A stretch of 64,000 nucleotides of DNA, from the NCBI RefSeq assembly GCF_000332235.1, contig NZ_CM001775.1:861630-925629 (forward strand), given 5' to 3'. The translations under genes and the position numbers were made by a program. This DNA is from Geminocystis herdmanii PCC 6308. Its GTDB lineage: Bacteria > Cyanobacteriota > Cyanobacteriia > Cyanobacteriales > Cyanobacteriaceae. Positions 13,510-60,968 of this stretch are shown here, piece after piece. The notes below the pieces were generated by a model. It had not been told where the DNA came from, searched no databases, and saw only the letters and a list, made by a program, of their open reading frames with translations. Within the stretch, counting starts at the first letter, position 1, and each line of letters opens with the position of its first letter.

Positions 13510-14586
13510 TCAATTATCCAACACCTCCTCTAGTTTAAGTCCAATAGTTGAACCTTCAGGAAATACTGTACCTGTTTTTTCTGCCGAAAGACGGGCTAAG
13601 GCTTTATCATAAACGGTATCAGATAAGTGAATATAACCGATCTCATCCACGATCGATTTATGCTCTTTACTGAGATAATATTCTACAAAACTTTTGACTT
13701 CGGGGCGTTGTAAAGATGCTTTTTTCACATAGATAAAAATAGGACGAGCTAGGGGTTGATATGTACCATTTTCTACGGTAGCAATACTAGGCTCAATACA
13801 ACCCTCACCATTACTAGCATCTTCATCATCGATGGAAATGGGCTTCACTTTCGTTAAGTTTTCTTCTAAATAAGAAAGACCAAAGTAGCCTAAAGCACCT
13901 CGATCGCCTCCAACACCCTGTACAATGACGTTATCATCTTCACTAGCGGTATAGTCTCCCCTACTTTCTCCTCCTTTACCATTCACAGCTTCCGTAAAGT
14001 AATCAAACGTACCCGAATCTGTACCCGGTCCGTATAAGTTTAATGGTACATCAGGAAAGCTCGATCGCGCAGCGCCACTTTGTGATCGAACTTGTTTCCA
14101 ATTAGTTACATTACCCTGAGCAGAAGGATTCCAGATGGTTTCTAATTCTTTTTGTGTCAAACATACCGCCCAATCGTTTTCAGGATTAACCACCACCGAC
14201 AAAGCATCAAACGCCACAGGTAACTCTACATATTCAATGCCTTCTTGTTGACATTTCTCTATCTCCTCCTTTTTAATCGGGCGAGAAGCGTTAGAAATAT
14301 CCGTTTCTCCAGCACAAAATTTCTTAAAACCGCCCCCCGTGCCAGAAACGCCAATAGCAATTTTTACCCCTTCATTATCATCTTGAAAATCCTCCGCCAT
14401 AGCCTGAGTAATAGGGAATACTGTCGATGAACCATCAATACTAATATTACCTGTTAAATCACTCTTTTGGGGAGGGGTAACTGTTGCCGTTGAGTTATTT
14501 TTACCACAAGATTGTACTCCCATTAAGATCATAATTAAGGGAAAAGATAACCATAATTTACTGATTTTGTTAGTTTTAATTTTCAT
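13510..14586 (-). CDS. pstS: Phosphate ABC transporter substrate-binding lipoprotein PstS (SphX-like)
   Basis: Periplasmic phosphate-binding protein for PstCA-PstB. The 358 aa start with a lipoprotein signal (lipobox ending at C27, GVQSC), followed by [20 protein letters not shown] and [23 protein letters not shown], the phosphate-binding loops, and [16 protein letters not shown]. Residues 167-175 are encoded by a 21-bp dispersed repeat inserted between the WKQVR helix and the next strand. The gene diverges from the rest of the pst operon, with a Pho box between them. Confidence 0.93.
14062..14088 (-). repeat. 21-bp CGATCG-delimited repeat inserted in pstS
   Basis: CGATCG (14062) and TGATCG (14083) are exactly 21 bases apart and enclose CGCAGCGCCACTTTG, the complement of the core found in recJ and the 53171-56746 glycosyltransferase. 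In pstS it is read as RSQSGAARS. The variant bases (CACAAAG instead of GTAAAAC) remove the TAA stop that the standard unit would place in this frame. Confidence 0.75.
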
Positions 14587-22255: not shown

Positions 22256-24592
22256 TTAGTCATAAATTAGTTTAATTTCTTCTTGAATGATGGGAATTGG
22301 TGCTTGATAAAAATAGTTTTTTTGTAAGTTTTCTTGATATATTATTTCTTCAAAAATATTTTTAACTTTTACATAATTTTCTGGCAAAAAGTTGGCTTGA
22401 TTTTGTCTAAATTTTATTTTATTACCAACTATTTGATAACTAATATTGATTTCTTGTAAAGCATTTAAGATAATTTTTAAGGTATCTTTTTTAATAGCTA
22501 ATAAGGGTAATATTTCTTCGATCGAAATCTCCTCACTTTTCTGTATATTCTGTTTAATTAGCTTAATTAAAGTTTGCCAAAGTTGTTCTATATCGAGGTT
22601 ATTTTGATGCTGATAGGCTAAAACTAAATCTTTTTGATTGTCGATCGCTTTTTGGGATTTATCGGTGATTTCTTGCCATTGTAAAGGACATTCGTTGACT
22701 AAAATTTCACGATGATCAATATTATTTAATAAGGTAAGGTTCGATCGATAATCTACAATAGTAGGAAGATGGTTAATGTTACGGTAAAAAGTAGTGTTTT
22801 CCTGTGCAATTTTTAAATCGATTATCTTGACAAAATAGAGATTTTTTTGTAAATGATAATCTAACTCGATAATAGCATCATAACGAGATTGTTGATTAAT
22901 TTCATTGTTATAATGTCCTTCCCATTTCCCTTCAATTCCTTGAGAGCAACTCTCATCATTTAAGGTAAAATAAACCGTATTTAGGGGTAATTTGTTGCCA
23001 TGATTATCCTTCTTTTTATCAGAAGTTTTTGTAAACCAACAATTTTTTATTAATAATTTCGGGTAAGGATTATCAAAGGTAAAAGGTTCAATTAATTTTA
23101 ACTCATTATATAATTTTTTCCCTAATTGTTCGATCGAAACTATCAAATCAATCTTTTTTGTCGAGGATAAACTATTACTTTTATTCCTTAATTGTTGATT
23201 AAGATTATCTGTCAATAAGTTAATATTTTCTGATGGTAAAGATATTTCTATTTCTTGATGATATTTCGTGATACTTATTAATAAATCCCTTTGATTATGG
23301 AGTAATTCCCATAAATTAAGACTAGAATGAGCATAACAATAACCATACTCGATCACGAAGTGGCGCTGCGCGATCGTAAAACGGCGCTGCTCGATCGTAA
23401 AACGGCGCTGCGCGATCGAATTTTCGTCACTAGAAAATAAAATAATAGGATGTCTATATTCTTGACTTAAAAAGCGAGAGATTAAAGGTAATAATTTTCT
23501 ATCCCATGAATTATTGTGCAAAATAATAATCTTATTGTTAGATAAATCTAAAGAAGCAATTTTTTGCTTAAATTGTTTAATAATTTTTTCTTTTAACTCT
23601 ACAAAAATTCGATAAGATTGCTCAACTTTCATCACCAATTCTCCCCATAAACGAGGATTTTCTGTAGTTAATAACTTTAACAATAAATTATCTTTTTTGT
23701 ACAGACTATTAAACACATTTAATCGAATGCCTAAACCTTTTTGATAGTCGGTAATTTTATCTTTACTATTTTCACAAGTTTTGATTAATCTTGTAATATA
23801 AAGGCGTTTTTCTAATGAGATTAATTCGATACCTTTTTTAAGTAAATAACGAGATTCTCCTTTGATATTATCTCCCGAAGCTAATAATCCTAAAGCAACT
23901 AAATCTAACAATTTGTCAGGTTTTTCCTGAGAAAATTCTTGATATAAACTCTCTAACAATTTATAAGCAATTCCTACCGCCGAGAGATGATAAAAAGGAT
24001 GATTTTCTGCGAAATTTAACGGATTAAGAAAAGAAATAACAGGAGGTCGTGCAACTGGTAAAATATGATGGTCAATGATAATTATATCTATTTCTAAATC
24101 TTGAGCATAACTAATCATCTCAAGACTTTGACACCCCATATCGACTACTAAAATTAACTTAACTTCCCTTTGGTTTAATAAATCGATACCTTCACGGGTT
24201 AATCCCTTAATTTCAGTGGGAGAAATATAGTAACTTAATTGATGATTTTGTAAGGAAAAAAAAGGCTTTAAACCTTCTATTAATATGGCTGTGGCTATCA
24301 CTCCATCAATGAAGGAATCTCCCCAAATCACCACTTTTTCTTGATTCACCCATGCTTGTTGTAAACTCTGGATTCCTCTTTTCATTTCTTGCCCAAATTC
24401 ATCTCCAGAAAGGGATTGAGTCTCATGACAATTCAATAATTCCCTCAAATTGTCAATGTCTCGAATCCCCCGATTCCAGAGTAATTGCCCTAAAAAATCT
24501 ATGTCACTATTATTGACATCAGTCTTTATTTCTGCCAAAAACCATTGAGGAATATCAATGCTTGGGATTATTTCCCATGAGTAGCTATCCAT
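22256..24592 (-). CDS. RecJ-like DHH family protein, probably catalytically degenerate
   Basis: A 778-aa relative of single-strand exonuclease RecJ. The fold is clear: DHH domain with motif II VVDMGCQS and motif III IIIIDHHILP, then GIAYKLLESL and a DHHA1-like RHPIILFSSD. But motif I reads GDSFIDG where RecJ has GDYDADG, losing the central metal-binding Asp, and I cannot find the DHHA1 GGHAxAAG or RGSGRS motifs. Residues about 392-415 are encoded by three copies of a 21-bp repeat. It starts 3 nt after an FHA gene. NCBI-style annotation would be RecJ; nuclease activity is doubtful. Confidence 0.8.
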   Translation of the reverse strand: MDSYSWEIIPSIDIPQWFLAEIKTDVNNSDIDFLGQLLWNRGIRDIDNLRELLNCHETQSLSGDEFGQEMKRGIQSLQQAWVNQEKVVIWGDSFIDGVIATAILIEGLKPFFSLQNHQLSYYISPTEIKGLTREGIDLLNQREVKLILVVDMGCQSLEMISYAQDLEIDIIIIDHHILPVARPPVISFLNPLNFAENHPFYHLSAVGIAYKLLESLYQEFSQEKPDKLLDLVALGLLASGDNIKGESRYLLKKGIELISLEKRLYITRLIKTCENSKDKITDYQKGLGIRLNVFNSLYKKDNLLLKLLTTENPRLWGELVMKVEQSYRIFVELKEKIIKQFKQKIASLDLSNNKIIILHNNSWDRKLLPLISRFLSQEYRHPIILFSSDENSIAQRRFTIEQRRFTIAQRHFVIEYGYCYAHSSLNLWELLHNQRDLLISITKYHQEIEISLPSENINLLTDNLNQQLRNKSNSLSSTKKIDLIVSIEQLGKKLYNELKLIEPFTFDNPYPKLLIKNCWFTKTSDKKKDNHGNKLPLNTVYFTLNDESCSQGIEGKWEGHYNNEINQQSRYDAIIELDYHLQKNLYFVKIIDLKIAQENTTFYRNINHLPTIVDYRSNLTLLNNIDHREILVNECPLQWQEITDKSQKAIDNQKDLVLAYQHQNNLDIEQLWQTLIKLIKQNIQKSEEISIEEILPLLAIKKDTLKIILNALQEINISYQIVGNKIKFRQNQANFLPENYVKVKNIFEEIIYQENLQKNYFYQAPIPIIQEEIKLIYD
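23350..23418 (-). repeat. Three tandem 21-bp CGATCG-delimited units inside the recJ-like gene
   Basis: Boundary sites at 23350 (CGATCA), 23371, 23392 and 23413 (CGATCG) are each exactly 21 bp apart. Each unit has the core (A/G)AA(A/G)(C/T)GGCGCTG. The units are read as repeated (E/A)QR(R/H)F(T/V)I, so the insertion keeps the frame and falls in a loop of the DHHA1-like region. Confidence 0.85.
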
Positions 24593-46228: not shown

Positions 46229-46308
46229 CATTCTCCATTCTCCATTCTCCATTCTCCATTCTCCATTCTCCATTCTCCATTCTCCATTCTCCATTCTCCA
46301 TTCTTCAT
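46229..46308. repeat. Heptanucleotide tandem array (CATTCTC x11)
   Basis: About eleven near-perfect copies of CATTCTC between the convergent 3' ends of the 45636 gene and nurA. One of the cleanest STRR arrays in the window. Confidence 0.9.
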
Positions 46309-46311
46309 TTT

Positions 46312-53170: not shown

Positions 53171-56100
53171 GTGAAAAAATTTATTATCATTGATCATTCT
53201 TTACAAGATTTACAAGGACATCATTTTGAATGTAGCGTATCTGTTGCAGAAGCATCTCAAAGATTAAACTATGAAGCGATTATTATTGCTAATAAAAATT
53301 TTTCTTCGGATTTTTACCCACAAAATATTAAAATTATTTCTGAATTTGAAGTTGATTGGTTTAATAATTCTACCCAAAAATTAACTAATTTTCAAAGTAA
53401 AATTAAGAGTTTAATTAATATTTTAGATGACTTTAATTTAGATAATTTTCTACATAAATATCGACAAAAAATTGATTATCAACTATTTAAACTTAAATTA
53501 ACTCAGCCTAAAAGTAGAGTCTTATTAGAAAAAATTGAAGGTAGTTTATTTAGGTTAATTCAATGGATAAAAGAAGATATTAAGTTACTAAAATTTGTTC
53601 CTTTAAGTCATACCATCTGGGGCATATTAAAAATTATTTTAGGAGTCATTAAATTTTCGTTTAAGGTAATTAATAAAAGTGTTAAAAAAATATTATTAAA
53701 ATTTATTAAAATCAGTCATAAAACCTTTGAAGAATCCTTAGAAAATACTCTTAATAATTTACAAGTAACCCTCGATGATCATATTTTTATTCATACTTTA
53801 GGTATCGAACAATTAGAAGAATTATTATACTTATTACAAAAGCAAAATCTCGCCAAGATACCGCAATATCATATTATGTTGAGACGAGATATTGACGATT
53901 CTCTCGTCAAAAATGCTCAGGGTATAGGCATTAAAGCCTGTTTAAATCAATTTTATCAGTGTCAATTTTCCTCTAGTAAAGTGAGATTTTATACCGATAC
54001 TCCTCAATTAGTCGATCGATATAATAGTTTATCACCGATTGAGTTTATCGAAATACCTGTACCTTTTAGACAAGAAAAATTATCGCAAAATTTACCTACA
54101 GAGAAAGAAAATCAACCCTTACATTTAGTTTATTTAGGAGATGCAAGAATTGAAAAAGGTTACTTACATTTACCGAATATAATTAAAGATTTATGGACAG
54201 ATTATTTAATCACGAAAAAACTAAGAATCACTATTCAATCTAACTTTAATATTAATAGTGGTGAAAAAGGAATTTTAAGCAGTAGATTAATCCTCGAACA
54301 ATATCCCGAAAGTATGGTAAAAATCATTAAAAATGCCATGACAACGGAGGAATATTATCAACTATTAATGAGTGCAGATTTGTTAGTTATTCCCTATGAT
54401 AATAAGAGTTATCGTCATCGCACTTCGGGAGTTTTAACGGAATCTTTAGCGGCAGGAAAGCCTGTAATTGTACCTGCAAATACTTGGTTAGCTAGTCAAA
54501 TTGACGACACAAGGGGAGAAGTTTATACCTATCCTCAAGAGATTAGTCAAAAAATTATCAAGGTGATTAATAATATTGAAGAATATCAAAAAAATGCTCA
54601 AGCATTTAGTCTTAATTGGTGTAAAAAACATTCCCCTGATAGTTTGATGAATCGCTTATTTTCTCCCTCTAGTTTTCAGCAGAATTTAACTAATAATCAT
54701 CAAGATATAATTTCTCAATCTACTATCAATCATCACCATAGTTTTTTATTTATTATACAGCTCGATCGAATTTTACAACTGGATATAACAGGGCAAATTA
54801 TCCTCAGTCATTTAGAGTATTTAACAGGGTGTAATAGTAAAATTTTTGTGATTATTTATTCTTTAACATCACCATTGATAGCAGAAAATGATGATTTATT
54901 TAGCAAAGCAAAGGAGATTTTAGCTAGTTATAATTTACAACAAATTTGGTTGATAAAAATAGCAGATTCTCCTCAATTTATTCCCAGTTTAGACAAAGAA
55001 AAATATTTCCGTGATTGTCATAATAGTCAACAAAGTTTAACCAGAAATTTAGTTGATATAAATAGTTTATCTATTCCTGAGAGTTTAGTTAATTATCTAC
55101 AGAATCAGGAAATAAATAATATTTTCTTAGATAGCATTTCTAGTCAAATTTTAGTTAACAAATTAGGATTAACTCATCTTTCTATTACTTGTCAAGTGTC
55201 ACAATTAGAATCTTATCAGTATGCCATAGAAAATAATCAAGAAATTGACTTACAGGAGTTAAAACAAGAGTTTAGTTTATTTAATCAAGTAAAAGTTATT
55301 TTAGTTAATCATCAATATTTAACTGAAAAAATTATTAATCAATATCCCACTTTAAAAGCCTATACTTTACCTCATTTTTATCCTCTTAATTCTGCCAAAA
55401 ATACTATTCATCATAGTAAAATTATTAATTTACTTTGGGGACATAATCAAGCTCAATATTATCAGATAATGAGTGATATTTTTATGGTAAATCATGATGG
55501 GGAAATGCTCGATCGTAAAACGGCGCTGAGCGATCGAACTCCTGATAAAATAAGTAAAAACATTGCTATTTTATACCCTTGGGGAGACATTTTAGAACGA
55601 AAAGCAGGAGCAAGTCAAAGGGTAGGGTTATTAATTGATTATTTACAAGAAAATAATAATCATATCTGGTTATTTACTACAGGAGAAGAAAAAGAGTTAT
55701 TATTAGATAATATTCGTTATACTTTTTATGAGCAAAATTCGGATAACTTCGACAACCTCAATCAAACTGATGAAGAAAACTTAAGAGAAAATAGCGATAT
55801 TATTACTCAAGATTGGCGTTGGAAAATGTATCATCAATTTGATAATGATTATAAGTTTAAAACTTGGCTAGAAAATATAGTCGATTGGGCAGATATAGTT
55901 ATTTTAGAATATCCTTTTTGGGGGAAAGTTGTCAGTAAAATCTGTACTCAAAAACAAGTTAAATTAATTATCACTGCCCATGATATTTTATGCAAACAAG
56001 TATCCCCTAATACCGATATTTATCAAACTTTATTAACAGAAGAAATTAACAGCTTAAAACAAGCTAATTATGTTATTAGTGTTGCCGAAAAAGACAAAGA

Positions 56101-58226: not shown

Positions 58227-58245
58227 TAGGAGATACTTTTAATTA

Positions 58246-58310
58246 TTAATTCCTAATTCCTAACTCCTAATTCTTAATTCTTAATTCTTAATTCTTAATT
58301 CTTAATTCTT
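58246..58310. repeat. Heptanucleotide tandem repeat (TTAATTC)
   Basis: About nine units of TTAATTC and variants, running into the stop codon of the ylqD-like gene on the minus strand. Confidence 0.85.
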
Positions 58311-58737
58311 ATAAACTTCCTCTAATTTCCTCAATTACTCCATCTCGTAAAATGATTTCCACATTCAGTTTTTCTACTAAATTATCACCTTCTTGAACAT
58401 CAAAAAAACTTTCCATTTGTGCTTGAAAAACCTCCTGCCCTAATTCTAATAATTGCACTTGTTGCATTTGCTGTAAAAATTGGTTTTTTTGTTGCAACAT
58501 TTCCCCTTTTTTCTGATTAACTTGCCCTTGAATATTCTCAATTTGTTGAGGTGCTTGTAAACTGCCTTGTTTTCTAATTTCAGCGATGGCACTTTGACCT
58601 TGTTGATCTAACTGTATCATTTGTTGGTCAATTTGAGCAATTTGTGCTTGTAACTGTTTTTGTGCTTCATCCTGCCAAGCTGGAGTAACAATTACTTTGA
58701 CATTGACTGGACGTTTTAAGGTTAATTTGTTTGTCAT
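58309..58737 (-). CDS. YlqD family protein
   Basis: 142 aa. N-terminal LKRPVNVKVIVTPAWQDEAQ and C-terminal NVEIILRDGVIEEIRGSL strands flank a Gln-rich coiled coil (about 25-105), the layout of the YlqD family conserved in cyanobacteria and Firmicutes. Function unknown; soluble. Confidence 0.88.
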   Translation of the reverse strand: MTNKLTLKRPVNVKVIVTPAWQDEAQKQLQAQIAQIDQQMIQLDQQGQSAIAEIRKQGSLQAPQQIENIQGQVNQKKGEMLQQKNQFLQQMQQVQLLELGQEVFQAQMESFFDVQEGDNLVEKLNVEIILRDGVIEEIRGSL

Positions 58738-60800: not shown

Positions 60801-60968
60801 AGAATAGGAAATAGGGAATAGGAAATAGGGAATAGGAAATAGGGAATAGGAAATAGGGAATAGGAAATAGGGAATAGGAAATAGGGAATAGGAAATAGGG
60901 AATAGGGAATAGGGAATAGGAAATAGGGAATAGGGAATAGGGAATAGGGAATAGGGAATAGGGAATAG
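60801..60968. repeat. Long heptanucleotide tandem array (GAATAGG/GAAATAG, ~24 units)
   Basis: 168 bases of alternating GAATAGG and GAAATAG heptamers, the longest array in the window. A frame through it translates as an LFPIPYS repeat and is not a gene. Confidence 0.92.

Follow-up and report, generated by a model that had tools for sequence, protein, structure and literature searches.

A 21-bp hairpin unit within HIP palindromes of Geminocystis herdmanii PCC 6308, very probably a small mobile DNA element of the SDR kind

SDRs are reportedly 21–27 nt long and restricted to a subgroup of Nostoc, with compensating changes in the case of SDR4–6. Rickettsial palindromic elements (RPEs) measure approximately 100–150 bp. 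SDR5 of Nostoc inserts between nucleotides 3 and 4 of HIP1 (Elhai 2015, PMC4390886), HIPs (HIP1, TCGATCGA) being 8-bp target sites (PMC4390886). Proteins containing RPEs have been listed (PMC2635572), and REP/REPIN sequences are described together with RAYT (PMC3116915).

The element presented here is a 21-bp insert within a HIP. In the window, i.e. the whole 64-kb stretch of the Geminocystis herdmanii PCC 6308 genome (G000) that was analysed, five copies are present, namely a tandem array of three in a recJ-like gene and single copies in pstS and a glycosyltransferase gene; the original prediction had located all five exactly. The features are:

13510..14586, minus strand: host gene, phosphate-binding protein PstS (PBP_like_2)
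14062..14088, minus strand: element copy in pstS, CAC/GTG subtype, loop AAA
22256..24592, minus strand: host gene, RecJ-like protein (DHH domain), 778 aa
23350..23376, plus strand: element unit 1 of the recJ-like array, CAC/GTG subtype (CGATCACGAAGTGGCGCTGCGCGATCG)
23371..23397, plus strand: element unit 2 of the recJ-like array, CGT/ACG subtype, loop AAA
23392..23418, plus strand: element unit 3 of the recJ-like array, CGT/ACG subtype, loop AAA
53045..56746, plus strand: host gene, glycosyltransferase group 1 protein (ORF start codon uncertain)
55510..55536, plus strand: element copy in the glycosyltransferase gene, CGT/ACG subtype, reads DRKTALSD

Unit 2 of the array has CGATCG in common with the adjoining units, and the RecJ-like protein carries a 21-aa insertion that is missing in sister species (a RecJ scan of genome contigs gave no match). 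The pattern CGATCG-N15-CGATCG occurs 3 times in the window (0.01 expected from dinucleotide shuffles), and two further units, at 23350 and in pstS (14062–14088, minus strand), have CGATCA at one end. The units read SIAQRHFVI (antisense) in recJ, RSQSGAARS (sense) in pstS and DRKTALSD (sense) in the glycosyltransferase gene. Frame and orientation had both been predicted to differ in all three genes; the frames do, the orientations do not, as the pstS and glycosyltransferase copies are both sense. The pstS copy had further been taken for a standard unit edited to remove a TAA, a reading that has to be dropped: it is a member of the CAC/GTG subtype, of which 34 copies were catalogued, and its CAC AAA GTG contains no stop in the frame used. 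The window also contains many heptamer tandem arrays (STRR-like), e.g. at 60802–60968, 46229–46309 and 58239–58311.

The closest described system is SDR5, of which the element is probably a relative, although the comparison was made by description and not by sequence. Both are very small dispersed repeats placed precisely inside HIP1, and the insertion points agree. The units (20–24 bp, with 69 exact-core copies) agree with SDRs in size and dispersal, and they show the compensating changes of SDRs in hairpin 1, hairpin 2 having no such support. The element differs from SDR5 in that it was found in other lineages (families f1, f8, f16 and f23) and not in the HetR-bearing family f33, in that its target follows the HIP variant of the host, and in that many of its copies are in-frame in genes. 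It is therefore filed here as a member of the SDR kind and not as SDR5, from which it is set apart by description only. What the present data add are the many in-frame gene copies, a filter that passes only triplet lengths, a target that tracks the host and the occurrence in further lineages. RPEs are likewise in-frame repeats that add peptides to unrelated proteins, but they are much longer, occur in Rickettsia and have no HIP target. REP/REPIN sequences resemble the element as short, non-autonomous, dispersed hairpin DNA; in contrast, REPs are extragenic and tagged by GTAG/CGTC, while the element is bounded by GATC/CGATCG and has 41 of its 59 21-bp copies in ORFs.

Unit anatomy and abundance

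In the complete G. herdmanii genome (4.26 Mb, one contig; approximately 34% G+C in the fetched part) the exact-core pattern GATC-N6..11-GGCGCTG-NN-CGATC has 69 matches, split 39 to 30 between the two strands, and its reversed control has none. This is the fair whole-genome figure, since spacing was counted in 0.9 Mb fetched mostly around copies, which is thus enriched for them. Within this enriched sequence, GATC pairs 21 bp apart number 102 (about 16, typically 8–25, at other distances) and CGATCG pairs 21 bp apart number 41 (0–14 at other distances), so that the excess of 21-bp spacing for which the original prediction had called is indeed found. The same copy-centred 0.9 Mb contains TCGATCGA 693 times and GCGATCGC 128 times, a TCGATCGA-dominant profile that agrees with the one published for G. 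herdmanii PCC 6308 (705 and 121 per Mb, respectively; Elhai 2015, PMC4390886). Different CGATCG-anchored repeats were also observed in this genome, namely the minisatellite TTCGATCGAGTTTTGGGGGAG with a 21–22-bp period (837558–837735, L087) and an array of approximately 40-bp units, GTTCGATCGTGCTTATGAGGTAATGTTGATGTGGTTAAAGG (2644712–2650567, L094).

The unit can be written as GAT-[CAC GAA GTG]-[GCG CTG CGC]-GATC, the element being a 9-nt triloop hairpin (hairpin 1) followed by GGCGCTGCGC and placed within the HIP palindrome. The usual unit spacing is 21 bp, with rarer forms of 20, 23 and 24 bp. In its 9-nt form hairpin 1 has the stems CAC/GTG (34 copies), CGT/ACG (22) and CGC/GCG (1) and the loops GAA, AAA, CAA or GTA; an 11-nt form has 4-bp stems (CACT/AGTG, 11 copies; CGCT/AGCG, 6; CGCC/GGCG, 4; CACC/GGTG, 1), and copies in related genomes add CAT/ATG stems and further loops. 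The stem of hairpin 1 changes by compensating pairs: it is fully Watson–Crick in 57 of 59 copies (shuffle mean 28.5, maximum 40) and the 4-bp form is strictly paired in 22 of 26 (shuffle mean 8.1, all shuffles lower), the few founder subtypes meaning that independent events are fewer than copies.

No covariation was detected in hairpin 2 (59/92 paired, 57 after shuffling), and the last bases of this block often match the HIP flank instead. Minimum-energy folding of the 27-mer, as DNA and as RNA, preferred one rod-like hairpin and did not return the two-hairpin form; the two-hairpin picture is therefore based on hairpin 1 covariation only. The possibility that the flanking palindrome forms an outer stem was rejected, as the palindrome arms do not covary (observed equals expected); the palindrome therefore belongs to the target.

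Copies in genes and empty sites in sister species

According to simple ORF calling, 41/59 copies with 21-bp and 3/4 with 24-bp spacing are inside ORFs, against 0/26 with 23-bp and 0/3 with 20-bp spacing, i.e. 44/63 for triplet versus 0/29 for non-triplet spacings (Fisher p = 1.7e-11); plain CGATCG sites are in ORFs in 80% of cases. An insert that shifts the frame would by itself disrupt the ORF as called; to allow for this, the flanks on either side of each 20- and 23-bp copy were joined by script. This yielded a long ORF (624 aa) at one site only, and nearly all of these copies are thus truly intergenic and not hidden frameshifts. The site in question, 2978807 (L289), is the one place where a 23-bp copy may interrupt a gene. 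Since 20- and 23-bp units occur only outside ORFs (0/29), frame preservation is a matter of selection after insertion. The multiple-of-three length noted in the earlier proposal is thus not a design feature: 20- and 23-bp units exist, none of them in ORFs.

Copies within genes occur in each of the six frames and encode unrelated peptides in proteins that are themselves unrelated; many other copies are intergenic. The host genes include those for acetate kinase, carbonic anhydrase, a C5 cytosine methylase, CheA-like, CpeS and TrkA-like proteins, an LMW phosphatase and a tRNA nucleotidyltransferase-like protein, in addition to PstS and the RecJ-like protein. The RS frame is occupied by 5 CAC and 0 CGT units and the mirror frame by 0 CAC and 1 CGT, which fits a loss of stop-containing insertions, the counts being too few to prove it.

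The flanks of 17 copies were joined without the element and searched in four genomes of the same genus. In 31 of 32 spanning alignments, covering 12 loci, the sister sequence was exactly 21 nt shorter (net length, from aligned coordinates). Exactly 21 bp are missing from pstS of the sister genome G003, where the target is kept as GTCGATCGAATT, and exactly 63 nt from its recJ-like gene, which has GAAAACTTGATCGCTCATGG at the site. Other empty sites are CTCGATCGATTT (G003) and ATCGATCAATTT (G002) at 964807, CACGATCGACAA (G002) at 336071 and TATCGATCGAAG (G004) at 2446936. The acetate kinase has a clean 7-aa insertion, DHEVALH, relative to orthologues 77–79% identical (the AlphaFold model of acetate kinase, built from four sequences, has a pLDDT of 48). 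As the sisters lack exactly 21 bp and often retain CGATCG or GATC at the empty site, the copies are recent insertions. Reciprocally, two copies of G002 have empty partners in G. herdmanii, and one intergenic filled site, the only conserved one seen, is common to G. herdmanii and G003; insertion has therefore been active in more than one lineage. The comparison with sister orthologues proposed in the original prediction thus found the element missing from them, and this, together with the several frames and both orientations in use, bears out its central claim that the repeat spreads as DNA and not as a protein motif.

Target palindrome and distribution

In G. herdmanii, 55 of 92 copies are flanked by TC..GA, and none of the twelve most frequent flank classes is GC..GC. 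Copies from other genera and families are flanked by GC..GC (HIP1) in 15 of 24 cases and by TC..GA in none. The full flanks are TCGATC..GATCGA in G. herdmanii and GCGATC..GATCGC (HIP1) elsewhere; G002, a genome of the same genus whose fetched sequence is richer in GCGATCGC, has GC..GC copies too. The element is thus the same across hosts, but its target palindrome is the form of HIP that each host itself uses. The extended HIP consensus is matched more closely by the flanks of filled sites than by plain sites. Some arrays mix subtypes (one CAC followed by two CGT units in recJ; CGT and CAC at 54838/54859), which shows insertion into the CGATCG of an earlier copy. For a transposon-derived MITE, terminal inverted repeats of a known IS and a target duplication would be expected; here, with GATC/CGATCG at both ends, element and duplicated target are not separable, and the search for a cognate IS covered Y1 transposases. 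Insertion at HIP-type sites, another expectation of the original prediction, agrees both with the CGATCG/GATC left at empty sites and with flanks that follow the host HIP.

The copy at 336071 (L294:9252-10511) is inside a C5 cytosine DNA methylase gene; should this enzyme be the CGATCG methylase, the interrupted gene would be one whose product acts on the target of the element itself. In a LamG/FG-GAP repeat gene, 2.67 kb located between two CGATCG sites in G003 (L268:3003-5671) are missing from G. herdmanii (2425833; L092:188-2098), and an element copy is present exactly at the junction. Recombination between HIP sites or element copies is a possible cause of this loss.

A scan of 391 genomes of the order, with one mismatch allowed, detected the pattern in 12 of the 15 family f1 genomes. 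Its occurrence is patchy in f8 (G280 and G314), f16 (G056) and f23 (G036), with a few single weak matches elsewhere and none found in f33, a HetR-bearing family (HetR is not confined to f33). An identical 25-mer is found in some members of f1, f8, f16 and f23, with exceptions, and G280 has an exact triple tandem in a 618-aa ORF. No HIP1-split family was seen in a 400-kb sample of a HetR-bearing genome. A scan of the genome collection with a loose pattern was discarded, as it returned mostly chance matches in GC-rich bacteria. Likewise rejected was the Nostocales repeat GCGATGTCTACGACGGGCTACGCCTACGC as a possible SDR5, whose left flank fits HIP1 while the right one does not. This dispersed repeat, present in G034 and G060 (family f21), has triloop-like blocks (GTC-TAC-GAC, GGC-TAC-GCC) that vary with pairing kept (GCC-TAC-GGC) and is HIP1-like on its left side only.

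Possible routes of movement

Taken together, the element very probably is mobile DNA of very small size and of the SDR kind, non-autonomous and placed in HIP. The unit would be copied into the centre of a host palindrome XCGATCGX', after which each end would read GATC/CGATCG. A trans-acting machinery at GATC/CGATCG may recognise the hairpin, as single-stranded DNA or as RNA, and insert a copy; most copies in genes would then be tolerated passengers adding 7 aa. More tentatively, movement may proceed without a transposase of the element's own kind, via cyanobacterial HIP/CGATCG methylation and repair, the target changing with the HIP octamer of the host.

It is also conceivable, if doubtful, that there is no dedicated enzyme and that fragments containing the unit are dispersed among the thousands of HIP sites by template switching or by gene conversion aided by homology. 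The shared flanks AAAGYTCGATC..GATCGARCTTT would provide a short stretch of homology at either side, HIP sites are highly abundant and the better consensus fit of filled sites agrees with such a process, as do the CGATCG shared within tandem arrays and the copy at the CGATCG junction of the 2.67-kb deletion. However, several filled sites far from the consensus match the empty site of the sister with no co-conversion (e.g. CACGATCGAC at 336071 and TATCGATCGAAG at 2446936), and no covariation is seen between the flank arms.

Mobilisation by a Y1 transposase of the IS200/IS605 or RAYT type, which would recognise the hairpin and cleave at the tetranucleotide CGAT/GATC in the manner of REPINs, is improbable. 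Small hairpins bounded by a fixed tetranucleotide would suit such an enzyme, and an identical pair of IS200/605-type genes and a single RAYT-like gene are present in G. herdmanii. However, no Y1 transposase gene was found in G003, which has copies, while G001 and G004 have Y1 genes and at most one weak copy each. The RAYT-like gene (L094:8483-9058, genome position 2640050) adjoins GTAG..GGTGGGCATTGCCCACC palindromes instead, which look like its own REP family; in G003 and G. herdmanii, no association of the element with RAYT was thus found. RVT_1 is absent from G013, another genome with copies, and neither an HUH nor a reverse-transcriptase route is supported in the handful of genomes compared.

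Very improbable is a conserved protein or RNA motif kept for its function, be it a peptide insertion or a regulatory hairpin: the near-identity of the sequence across families would suit it, but all six frames are used, the peptides and proteins are unrelated, sister orthologues do not have the element and many copies are intergenic. An origin at HIP sites by simple local slippage or by expansion of a minisatellite, suggested by the tandem arrays at recJ and some other loci and by the other CGATCG-anchored minisatellites, can practically be set aside, as single, dispersed copies on either strand predominate, the core is missing from empty sites, and arrays mix subtypes (recJ; 54838/54859).

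As a non-autonomous mobile element of the SDR kind, the unit would rank with the smallest mobile DNA elements so far known, and it bears on two open questions, the function of HIPs and the movement of elements of approximately 20 nt. The G. herdmanii genome offers dozens of young insertions, with clean empty sister sites wherever a spanning alignment could be made, and the two hairpin subtypes serve as tags. With the insertions in acetate kinase, carbonic anhydrase, the RecJ-like protein and PstS, the tolerance of proteins to 7-aa insertions can be measured on natural examples. If the route via methylation and repair is true, the element would be not only among the smallest mobile DNA known but also a direct reporter of HIP-site processing.
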